Shown in pieces: positions 3,782 to 33,122 of a stretch of 33,122 nucleotides of DNA; position 1 is the stretch's first letter; each line of letters starts with the position of its first letter. The notes below the pieces were generated by a model that was not told the DNA's origin, made no database searches, and saw only the letters and a list, made by a program, of their open reading frames with translations. Source of the DNA: SAR86 cluster bacterium (GTDB lineage Bacteria; Pseudomonadota; Gammaproteobacteria; Magnimaribacterales; TMED112); contig JADHNL010000011.1 of assembly GCA_016779525.1 (NCBI GenBank), positions 1-33,122 of the forward strand, in the 5' to 3' direction. The translations under genes and the position numbers were made by a program.

Positions 3782-5044
3782 TCTATACGAGTTAGGTAGG
3801 TCTTTTTCTTTAGTGTATCTGTCGGTTAATTCTTCATATCTATTTGACAGATCTTGCTCAACACCATCGATTAATACTTTTTCAACAAACGATGTTAGTT
3901 CCAATGGATCTGCATCCCAAATAGCTATGTCGCCTTCAAAACCTACCGATACCTGGCCCACATCCACTAAACCAAAAATATCTGCAGGGTTTTTGGTAAT
4001 AGCATTTAGAGCTTCATTGTAAGGAACTCCCATGGCTACTGCATTCCCGGCAGATTGAGTAGCAAGATATGCATTATGTGATCCTGCTCCCTGATTGTAG
4101 TAAAAAGCCATTTTTACACCAGCAGCATTTAGTCTGGCTACGTTCTCGTAGGTTGCATTAAGAGAATCAAAAGAGCCAGGAATGTTATTCAAAGGATCCA
4201 GCACAACAGGAACACCAGCTTTGGCAATTTCATCTGCGACCATATGTGCCTCATTTGCTTCCCATAGAATTAATTCTATGCCTTCAGTATCAGCAAACTT
4301 AATCACATTAAGTATATCTGTCGCTTTGTTGACCCTGACAACCAAAGGCAATTCGTTACTTAGAAGTTTTCTTATTGCCACCAAATCCCTGTTTGTAAAT
4401 TGGTAATCGTTTTGCGTGCCAAAGAAAAACTGAATATTATCTGTTTCATAGTTGGCCTTATCTTCAGGTCTATTTCGCACAAAATCCATAAGGTCAGACA
4501 TGAACTGAAGTTCGGCAGCTCTTGAATCTCCTCGGGATTGGCCATAACTTGTCAATACTGCAAGAGGACCTTGTTTCTTCTGCTTCCAACCGTTATTAAT
4601 TTTAGTGTGGCTAAGCAGTCCTGAAAAATATCCGGATGCACCAGGAATATGAACAGTCGATGTAACTCCCTTTGATCTATTTAGCCTGACCGCTTGTGAA
4701 AAAGGGTTGTATGCTTTTGAAGGATCAAAGCCTGCGTTGTAAATATCTGAAGAATTATCATTGGTTTCACTTAAAGCGCCAATCTCTAATAACCCTAGGG
4801 AGGAAAAAACAACAAGACCTGGGGTAATGTACTTGCCATCAGCATATATCGTTTTACCTGTAACTCCATCATCAATTTGGTCTTCAATGCTAACGATTTT
4901 GCCTTCTTCGATTAAAAGATCTTTTTTAACAAATCCTTGATCTGGTAAGAAAACATTTCCACCTTTAACTAAAACTGAATTTTCAGTATCAGCAAGGGAT
5001 AGATAACTAAAGCCTAAAATTAAAATTAAATAAAAATATTTCAT
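3770..5044 (-). CDS. Exported amidohydrolase-family protein lacking the metal site
   Basis: A 424-residue protein of the amidohydrolase (imidazolonepropionase-like) fold with a Sec signal peptide (MKYFYLILILGFSYLSLA, then DT), so probably periplasmic. The N-terminal beta-sandwich part (NVFLPDQGFVKKDLLIEEGKI) and the C-terminal NPADIFGL, VGFEGDIAIWDADPLE parts are normal for the family. However, the HxH metal motif that should follow PGL is replaced by VFSSLG (residues 79-84), and the later His and Asp ligands are not apparent. I infer a catalytically dead or altered partner of the neighbouring amidohydrolase. The ATG at 5044 overlaps that gene's stop as ATGA, which implies coupled synthesis, perhaps as a hetero-oligomer. 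Substrate unknown. Confidence 0.8.
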   Translation of the reverse strand: MKYFYLILILGFSYLSLADTENSVLVKGGNVFLPDQGFVKKDLLIEEGKIVSIEDQIDDGVTGKTIYADGKYITPGLVVFSSLGLLEIGALSETNDNSSDIYNAGFDPSKAYNPFSQAVRLNRSKGVTSTVHIPGASGYFSGLLSHTKINNGWKQKKQGPLAVLTSYGQSRGDSRAAELQFMSDLMDFVRNRPEDKANYETDNIQFFFGTQNDYQFTNRDLVAIRKLLSNELPLVVRVNKATDILNVIKFADTEGIELILWEANEAHMVADEIAKAGVPVVLDPLNNIPGSFDSLNATYENVARLNAAGVKMAFYYNQGAGSHNAYLATQSAGNAVAMGVPYNEALNAITKNPADIFGLVDVGQVSVGFEGDIAIWDADPLELTSFVEKVLIDGVEQDLSNRYEELTDRYTKEKDLPNSYRSRE

Positions 5045-24857: not shown

Positions 24858-24886
24858 TTGCCATTTTGGCAAAAAAAGGCTAGATT
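24858..24886 (+). promoter_or_regulatory. Candidate sigma70 promoter for the glnA leader
   Basis: TTGCCA (24858-24863), a 17-bp spacer and TAGATT (24881-24886). The -35 box is one arm of a perfect inverted repeat TTGCCA-TTT-TGGCAA (24858-24872), which could be an operator. The layout matches the promoter before the second riboswitch array at 32893. Transcription would start near 24893, giving a leader of about 270 bases, exceptional for this gene-dense window. Confidence 0.55.
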
Positions 24887-24909: not shown

Positions 24910-24930
24910 ACCATACTCCATGGTTAAAAA
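24910..24930 (+). promoter_or_regulatory. Leader inverted repeat ACCAT-N5-ATGGT
   Basis: ACCAT-ACTCC-ATGGT is a perfect 5-bp inverted repeat about 18 bases after the predicted start, followed by TAAAAA. A near copy (CCAT-N5-ATGG plus GTTAAAA) occurs at 32941-32960 in the other riboswitch leader. It could be a short RNA hairpin or a DNA operator. Confidence 0.4.
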
Positions 24931-24958
24931 GGAGCCTTTGATTAGGTAAGAGTTAAAT

Positions 24959-25006
24959 CGTTCATCTTCGCAAGAAGACGGAAGTAAGTAAAAACTGAAG
25001 GAACGC
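24959..25006 (+). ncRNA. Glutamine riboswitch aptamer 1 upstream of glnA
   Basis: A glnA-family RNA. CGTTC (24959-24963) pairs with GAACG (25001-25005) as P1. TCTTC-GCAA-GAAGA (24965-24978) is a second stem capped by a GNRA tetraloop. AGT-AAAA-ACT (24987-24996) is the third stem. The junction strings ACGGAAGTA and GAAGGAACGC match the conserved core of the glutamine aptamer (GACGGAAGUAG...GAAGGAACGC), which carries a loop-E-like fold. A near copy follows 70 bp downstream, so glutamine is expected to be sensed by two aptamers in series. Known family members control nitrogen genes in cyanobacteria and uncultured marine bacteria. Confidence 0.92.
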
Positions 25007-25028
25007 GCCGTTTACAGGAAACGTAAAT
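25007..25028 (+). other. Inter-aptamer linker with 5-bp hairpin
   Basis: CGTTT-ACAGG-AAACG (25009-25023) forms a perfect 5-bp hairpin between the two aptamers, and may insulate their folding. A related ACAGGA string recurs after aptamer 2 (25086-25091) within a 7-bp hairpin at 25081-25102. Confidence 0.5.
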
Positions 25029-25076
25029 CGTTCATCTTCGCAAGAAGACGGAAGTAAGCGAAAGCTGAAGGAACGC
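25029..25076 (+). ncRNA. Glutamine riboswitch aptamer 2 upstream of glnA
   Basis: Second glnA-family aptamer, the same length as aptamer 1 and differing from it at only three positions. P1 is CGTTC (25029-25033) with GAACG (25071-25075). The second stem is identical. The third stem is AGC-GAAA-GCT. Two of the three differences (T to C, A to G) are partners in one base pair, so pairing is kept; the third turns the loop into a GAAA tetraloop. The aptamer ends about 87 bases before the glnA ATG, and the region between holds a start-site hairpin rather than a strong terminator. Confidence 0.93.
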
Positions 25077-25122
25077 GCCCGTTAAACAGGACCGAGTTTA
25101 ATTTCTAAATATCCTGCAGATC

Positions 25123-32876: not shown

Positions 32877-32895
32877 CAATTCTAAATTAGAATTG
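32877..32895. promoter_or_regulatory. 19-bp perfect dyad, candidate operator
   Basis: CAATTCTAA-A-TTAGAATTG has 9-bp arms around one base. It starts eight bases upstream of the PepSY ATG and its right arm overlaps the -35 box (32893-32898) of the plus-strand promoter. A dimeric regulator could control both divergent genes here. I cannot match it to a known box; the similarity to Fur boxes is poor. Confidence 0.5.
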
Positions 32896-32921
32896 CCAGA
32901 TTTTTGGCATTTTGCTATATT
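32893..32921 (+). promoter_or_regulatory. Strong candidate sigma70 promoter for second riboswitch leader
   Basis: TTGCCA (32893-32898), a 17-bp spacer and TATATT (32916-32921), with an extended -10 TGC just before. Transcription would start near 32928. TGCCA and TGGCA (32905-32909) form an inverted repeat around the -35 box, as at the glnA promoter. Confidence 0.65.
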
Positions 32922-32925
32922 AAAA

Positions 32926-32960
32926 GAGAGATTTATCTCTCCATTTGTCATGGGTTAAAA
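32926..32960 (+). promoter_or_regulatory. Leader hairpin and CCAT-N5-ATGG repeat
   Basis: GAGAGA-TTTA-TCTCTC (32926-32941) is a perfect 6-bp hairpin at the predicted 5' end of the transcript. It is followed by CCAT-TTGTC-ATGG (32941-32953) and GTTAAAA, which mirrors the element at 24910-24930 before glnA. The aptamers begin 14 bases after the ATGG arm. Confidence 0.4.
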
Positions 32961-32967
32961 GACTACT

Positions 32968-33012
32968 CGTTCATCCCGCAAGGGACGGAAGTAGGCTAAG
33001 GCTGAAGGAACG
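32968..33012 (+). ncRNA. Glutamine riboswitch aptamer 3
   Basis: glnA-family aptamer. P1 is CGTTC (32968-32972) with GAACG (33008-33012). The second stem TCCC-GCAA-GGGA is one pair shorter than in the other copies and GC-richer, but keeps the GCAA loop. The third stem is GGC-TAAG-GCT with one G-T pair. The core strings GACGGAAGTAGG and GAAGGAACG are conserved. It is the first of a pair separated by only six bases. Confidence 0.9.
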
Positions 33013-33018
33013 TACCCT

Positions 33019-33068
33019 CGTTCATCTTCGCAAGAAGACGGAAGTAGGTAATGGTACCGAAGGAACGC
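33019..33068 (+). ncRNA. Glutamine riboswitch aptamer 4
   Basis: glnA-family aptamer. P1 is CGTTC (33019-33023) with GAACG (33063-33067). The second stem TCTTC-GCAA-GAAGA is the same as in aptamers 1 and 2. The third stem GGTA-ATGG-TACC has four pairs and differs fully from the others while remaining complementary. Core strings GACGGAAGTAGG and GAAGGAACGC are intact. It ends 22 bases before the ATG of the edge gene. Confidence 0.93.
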
Positions 33069-33086
33069 ATCTTTTTAAAAGGAGAT
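33069..33086 (+). promoter_or_regulatory. Shine-Dalgarno-sequestering hairpin
   Basis: ATCTTTT (33069-33075) pairs with AGGAGAT (33080-33086) over a TAAA loop, seven pairs including two G-U. The AGGAG ribosome-binding site of the edge gene lies wholly in the stem. The hairpin begins directly after P1 of aptamer 4, so ligand-bound P1 could stack on it and shut off translation. The switching logic is inference. Confidence 0.55.
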
Positions 33087-33090
33087 GTTT

Positions 33091-33122
33091 ATGACAAATC
33101 TGCAATTAATACAGCATAAAGC
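33091..33122 (+). CDS. Start of an unknown gene under tandem glutamine riboswitches, 3' truncated
   Basis: An ATG at 33091 with AGGAG six bases upstream (33080-33084) begins an open frame reading MTNLQLIQHK up to the window edge. Only about ten residues are visible, too few to identify a family. The tandem glutamine aptamers predict a nitrogen-assimilation function such as glutamate synthase, an ammonium transporter, a PII protein or another glutamine-related enzyme; that is inference from the regulation, not from the protein. Confidence 0.7.
   Translation, partial: MTNLQLIQHK

Follow-up and report, generated by a model that had tools for sequence, protein, structure and literature searches.

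A tandem glutamine sensor leads into a 43-codon gene at a contig edge

The window, meaning the whole stretch of 33,122 nucleotides analysed here, is the entire contig C2 of its source SAR86 genome (G000). It ends in two RF01739 glutamine aptamers, an SD hairpin and an ATG at 33091, and the contig stops inside the open reading frame (ORF) that this codon opens. The features of this edge locus, and of the glutamine synthetase (GS) locus in the same window, are:

24957..25079 (24957-25009 and 25027-25079), + strand: tandem glutamine aptamers of the glnA leader, 68.6 and 69.5 bits
25164..26570, + strand: glnA, type I GS (TIGR00653, 637 bits, cut-off 429); candidate target of the peptide
32893..32921, + strand: promoter-like TTGCCA-17-TATATT, proposed from its sequence
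32949..32961, + strand: 5′ leader element CATGGGTTAAAAG, linked to glutamine riboswitches in the genus
32966..33016, + strand: glutamine aptamer 1 (RF01739), 56.8 bits, cut-off 35
33017..33071, + strand: glutamine aptamer 2 (RF01739), 61.4 bits, cut-off 35
33067..33088, + strand: SD-sequestering hairpin, from sequence and folding; the platform also occurs in SAR86 and viral relatives
33091..33122, + strand: first ten codons of the 43-aa ORF, the rest lying on contig C4 (L007 108-239)

Both edge aptamers exceed the RF01739 gathering score, and the hairpin strands GCATCT (33067-33072) and AGATGT (33083-33088) enclose the SD sequence AGGAG (33080-33084). The tandem glutamine sensor and SD hairpin that a preliminary description had placed before ATG 33091 are therefore present, and ten full codons are indeed visible from there to the window edge.

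The first 139 bases of contig C4 of the same genome match the last 139 of the window exactly, and C4 carries the remainder of the ORF, which stops after 43 codons and is followed by a terminator-like hairpin (GGCACC...GGTGCC-T7) and then by a convergent, GST-like gene. In SAR86 cluster bacterium MED-G83 (G020), the locus runs uninterrupted on a single contig in the gene order of the window plus C4, which confirms the join; the ORF there differs from that of the window by one residue. A consensus scan of G020 found the promoter counterpart TTGCTA-17-TATATT, at no more than chance expectation. The preliminary description had predicted a nitrogen-related gene beyond the edge. The frame does stay open past the first few codons, but it closes without reaching a known nitrogen gene, and no recognisable nitrogen-metabolism gene was seen. 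Because the ORF closes at 43 codons, before the hairpin and the convergent gene, the supposed nitrogen gene encodes only a free-standing micro-protein. It forms a short transcription unit of its own and is not the first gene of a known nitrogen-enzyme operon.

The product, MTNLQLIQHKAAIKSNKRLTLKKYRFNLFLQKNLLIKEKSKTH, has 43 residues, a pI of 10.9 and a net charge of +10. It matched nothing in Pfam, NCBIfam, PDB or PHROGs, and it has neither a profile match to DUF4278 (PF14105) nor a YRG motif. AlphaFold2 predicts one helix over residues 3-42 with a mean pLDDT of 88 (six sequences), and a lone predicted helix says little about function. What ties this ORF to nitrogen is its switch, its co-occurrence with a GSI replacement and analogy; the protein as such contributes nothing to the link.

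A glutamine-riboswitch regulon in the SAR86 order

At E<=0.001 RF01739 has matches in 72 of 151 genomes of the order, and 59 of these pass the curated cut-off. The target in most of the window's genus is glnII (GSII); in G000 and G020 it is glnA (GSI). Further targets are an outer-membrane-type protein followed by amt, a GltB-like protein, a TonB-receptor-like protein, DUF4278 proteins, a DUF4177-like protein slightly under the Pfam cut-off and several sets of small basic ORFs (the GltB-like, TonB-like, OMP, amt, GSII and GST-like names were assigned by eye or by GS profile search). The one SAR86 DUF4278 protein of this regulon that was tested, 56 aa long, matches DUF4278 at E=1.1e-6. The edge ORF does belong to the glutamine regulon, as had been suggested, where it joins glnA in the window and the outer-membrane-type gene-amt locus on contig C9. 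It is also an unusual riboswitch target, a basic 43-aa protein behind tandem aptamers. The small ORFs have an expression platform unlike those of the glnA/glnII and amt leaders. In SAR86 genus g15, a DUF4177-like 71-aa protein lies behind a single glutamine aptamer and SD hairpin (L084, L096, L097, L099, L100, L104 and L112).

The cassette recurs across SAR86 and viral contigs

We searched for the cassette as the end of the aptamer plus the SD hairpin, GAAGGAACGCATCT N3-20 GGAGATG. Genomes of 84,980 species contained 42 matching stretches, 32 of them with an aptamer core upstream; the other ten look like chance matches. All but one of the aptamer-bearing stretches (31 of 32) come from SAR86 or gammaproteobacterial records, the exception being a Neomarinimicrobiota bin. 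IMG/VR held 69 pattern stretches, 67 with an aptamer core (67 viral contigs). In the SAR86 order, 32 of 203 genomes, belonging to 7 of 22 genera, carry the cassette, and a reversed control pattern gave zero matches in the same 203 genomes. The viral context is mixed: one contig resembles pelagiphage HTVC008M, another has a capsid gene like that of very large myophages, and a third has a region like that of large Pseudomonas phages. Searches of INPHARED phages (tblastn with four family members, blastn with one leader) returned only weak unrelated matches, and a search for related loci with alignment A1 yielded no further relatives.

Nearly all cassettes are followed by an ORF of 27-74 aa, the majority encoding basic peptides of 43-56 aa with the N-terminus MTKYQ...KRAVK and the C-terminus LPxYITDNPFYP, or variants ending in FFPYYL or FFVPDYLK. 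The 51 members besides the window peptide have net charges of +5 to +10 and a median pI of 10.1. Sum dN / sum dS was 0.18 across 26 locus-disjoint pairs, among them a few duplicated records and some ORFs of the DUF4177-like and DUF4278 kinds. Since dN was below dS in all 25 pairs with a defined dS, the cassette ORFs are under purifying selection at the protein level. A terminator-like hairpin lies within 130 nt past the stop in 52 of 74 cassette ORFs (a raw count without shuffled control).

Several individual loci stand out. The Neomarinimicrobiota bin (L146) and a viral contig (L189) carry an identical glutamine-switched DUF4278-like ORF, and the former is probably viral sequence within the bin. 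Viral peptides L191 and L203 combine a basic N-terminus, a DUF4278-like YRGVRY motif and an NPYYP tail, a possible bridge between the basic and DUF4278 small proteins. A 23-aa PqqA-like (PQQ precursor) peptide, recognised by eye, adjoins a glutamine-switched peptide in two phage contigs (L170 ~3800-3870; L197).

The window peptide as a probable, diverged member of the family

By leader architecture the window peptide is a member of this family, with a glutamine aptamer, a GCATCT...GGAGATG SD hairpin and a small ORF; by sequence, membership is suggestive. The N-terminal pattern MT..Q....K.A.K is present, and in a fitted alignment the peptide is 35-40% identical to the phage LQAM subgroup, with M1, T2, L4, Q5, K10, A12, K14, N27, Q31, K32, L34, L35 and H43 invariant. 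A registered ungapped shuffle test gave p=0.011, corrected for choosing the best of 51 members, and a PSSM built from 13 other members gave p=0.0036, all other ATG starts in the window scoring lower. Gapped local alignment against all members gave p=0.09. HMM scores corresponded to uncorrected p values of 0.04 (whole family) and 0.001 (LQAM group), and HMMs of the whole family or the FFPYYL group did not pick the peptide out convincingly. The sequence link is thus modest, p ranging from 0.004 to 0.09 by test. Just two viral contigs, each from the LQAM subgroup, carry exactly the 37-nt leader junction seen in the window. The peptide stops where that subgroup runs on with FFVPDYLK, and no aromatic/proline tail (NPFYP, FFPYYL or FFVPDYLK) is found in the ORF of either species. 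It looks like a diverged member lacking the usual C-terminal tail.

The cassette coincides with replacement of glnII by glnA

Within the genus (21 genomes), a third riboswitch cluster, the small ORF and a type I GS are confined to G000 and G020. Their glnA is flanked by the same two neighbours as the riboswitch-led glnII of the other genomes, so that glnA has taken the place of glnII in situ, behind the same glutamine riboswitch. Leader and ORF are almost identical between the two genomes (2 base changes in the ORF), with neighbouring proteins 86-96% identical. In G020 the cassette has a small lipoprotein-like gene on one side and the GST-like gene on the other; G008 and G003 have the counterparts of these flanking genes and no cassette. 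The small lipoprotein-like gene, found in G020, G003 and G008 at the site corresponding to window 32880-32966, is missing from the window's genome. The joint presence of cassette and GSI is limited to two related species and so counts as a single evolutionary event.

Elsewhere in SAR86, the genera that encode such peptides gave GSII matches only and possess PII, a family matched in 119 of 151 genomes of the order. Within the window's genus, G000-G019 all lacked a PII match, G020 was not among the matching genomes, and GlnE was found in 0 of 21 genomes. These are draft genomes and absence from any single one is weak evidence, yet the pattern is consistent across the genus. In the GSI, the region of the adenylylation site has the sequence LDLYEAS; the enterobacterial counterpart is KNLYDLP.

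A candidate glutamine-induced brake on ammonium assimilation

Crystal structures show that, on binding glutamine, the aptamer forms a G23-C60 pair, the linchpin, which closes P1 (PMC11477058). We equate C60 with the C directly 3′ of P1 (33068), the base that also begins the CATCT strand of the SD hairpin. When P1 was forced and this C removed, modelled opening of GGAG in the window rose from 0.00012 to 0.0026, absolute values that are low and come from a model of secondary structure only, with tertiary effects outside it. The same constraint gave a 20-60 fold rise in modelled SD opening across five leaders; P1 forced alone had almost no effect.

From these observations we propose that a stand-alone mRNA encodes the 43-residue, strongly basic, predicted helical protein, and that without glutamine its SD would be locked in the hairpin directly 3′ of aptamer 2. 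Glutamine would close P1 and take the following C as a C60-like linchpin partner, shortening the SD hairpin and turning translation on. Protein made at high glutamine would then damp ammonium assimilation, the likeliest route being electrostatic binding to GS, as for cyanobacterial IF7/IF17, and such damping may stand in for the PII/GlnE control apparently missing from the genus. The parts of this proposal differ in strength. The ON direction of the switch is probable, and would fit published ON switches; a nitrogen-regulatory role for the peptide is somewhat less so but still favoured; GS as its target, suggested by one correlated evolutionary event and by charge, is a tentative assignment. 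Taken as a whole, a glutamine-induced basic micro-protein restraining ammonium assimilation, most likely via GS, as drawn by analogy with IF7/IF17 and PirA, has about an even chance of being right. A wider and rather doubtful version holds that, outside cyanobacteria, the family shared by SAR86 and several marine phage lineages serves as a portable, post-translational means of braking nitrogen assimilation, that phages reset host nitrogen flow with it, and that it accompanied the GSII-to-GSI swap in a lineage without PII and GlnE.

The cassette may instead be viral in origin. In that case the phage peptide would act, once glutamine marks the host as productive, on a target other than GS (ribosome, RNA polymerase or nucleic acid), and the copies in SAR86 would be captures. 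Most known copies do lie on viral contigs from several phage lineages, the window's leader junction recurs only in two of these, and the peptides are Lys/Arg rich, like many nucleic-acid binders. We consider this unlikely, though to be taken seriously: copies with synonymous-dominated divergence are also spread across 7 of 22 SAR86 genera, and elsewhere in the order nitrogen genes lie under glutamine switches. Were the window copy merely a decaying remnant, a captured cassette whose own function went with its C-terminal tail, the absence of a tail found in nearly all relatives and the restriction to two species would be accounted for; intact aptamers, SD hairpin and terminator, and a leader and ORF nearly unchanged between two species whose neighbouring proteins are 86-96% identical, make such decay improbable.

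Reversing the switch, so that glutamine acts as OFF and starved cells use the peptide to promote nitrogen uptake or assimilation, appears slightly more improbable still. The aptamers of this genome also precede glnA and amt, expected to fall at high glutamine, but the small-ORF platform is unlike those platforms, published cyanobacterial glutamine switches before small ORFs activate, and the modelled SD opens under a ligand-like constraint. A conventional nitrogen-metabolism gene beginning at 33091, to which the identity of the riboswitch alone would point, has next to no chance and is refuted by the 43-codon ORF, the terminator-like hairpin and the convergent GST-like gene next to it.

Comparison with known systems

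The preferred reading, a glutamine-induced restraint on ammonium assimilation, has its closest parallel in cyanobacteria, where gifB is under a type 1 glutamine riboswitch that acts as an ON switch and the basic IFs act on GS (PMC6316151). Like IF7/IF17 (gifA, gifB), the window peptide is small and strongly basic, it shares with gifB a glutamine riboswitch in its leader, and it would be made in the same high-nitrogen regime. Unlike them, it is shorter, and no family match (Pfam, NCBIfam) links it to them; cyanobacterial IF control also uses NtcA. Its candidate role of binding or inactivating type I GS is drawn from the co-occurrence with GSI and from charge. PirA and other DUF4278 proteins are small nitrogen regulators, as is proposed here, and DUF4278 proteins lie behind glutamine riboswitches in cyanobacteria, to which our searches add viruses and the SAR86 genera g13 and g15; the window peptide differs from them in lacking the YRG motif and a DUF4278 match. 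It may work like IF7/IF17 and PirA, the likeness being one of proposed mode of action.

Picocyanobacterial downstream-peptide leaders (glutamine-II, RF01704) precede ORFs of 17-100 aa (PMC2864571), likewise placing a glutamine sensor ahead of a small ORF; here the sensor is RF01739, in tandem, and the peptides are different. The marine phages Melnitz and Mosig share RF01739-type switches with our viral contigs, and the available part of their account describes these as controlling tmRNA/ssrA (PMC9004378); the target here is a small-protein family, of which that part describes none. Phage glutamine riboswitches as such (PMC9004378) and small ORFs behind the related RF01704 (PMC2864571) are already known. 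A 2018 review called glutamine riboswitches restricted to cyanobacteria (PMC6316151), our literature search found no paper combining SAR86, riboswitch and glnA, and the main text of a 2024 SAR86 comparative study does not mention riboswitches. Our results place glutamine riboswitches as a regulon across abundant, hardly cultured ocean heterotrophs, with one target class, common to SAR86 and viruses, being a micro-protein family absent from the libraries searched. Should these peptides act on GS or PII, they would account for the control of nitrogen assimilation in streamlined bacteria that lack PII and adenylylation, and for the interference of phages with that assimilation.

Further elements in the leaders

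Across the genus (21 genomes) the 13-mer CATGGGTTAAAAG has 24 occurrences, nearly all of them 5′ of a glutamine riboswitch. A related unit, CTCCATGGNNNAAAAGGAG, was found in 25 of 203 genomes of the SAR86 order, only in the window's genus and g10; in genomes with mapped aptamers, every site lies just 5′ of an aptamer. The element takes the form CCATACTCCATGG(G)TTAAAA(A)GGAG or CATGGGTTAAAAG (window 24910-24936 and 32949-32961, L009 4930-5010, L267-L296), with up to three copies in amt leaders. It matched no Rfam family even at a permissive threshold and was absent from the viral contigs. In aligned leaders CTCC/GGAG changes to CCCC/GGGG, which suggests an RNA hairpin, and the element is possibly a new structured RNA. 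Upstream of the leaders of glnA and the peptide are the inverted repeats TTGCCATTTTGGCAA and TTGCCAGATTTTTGGCA, at 24858-24872 and 32893-32909, a possible site for a regulator.
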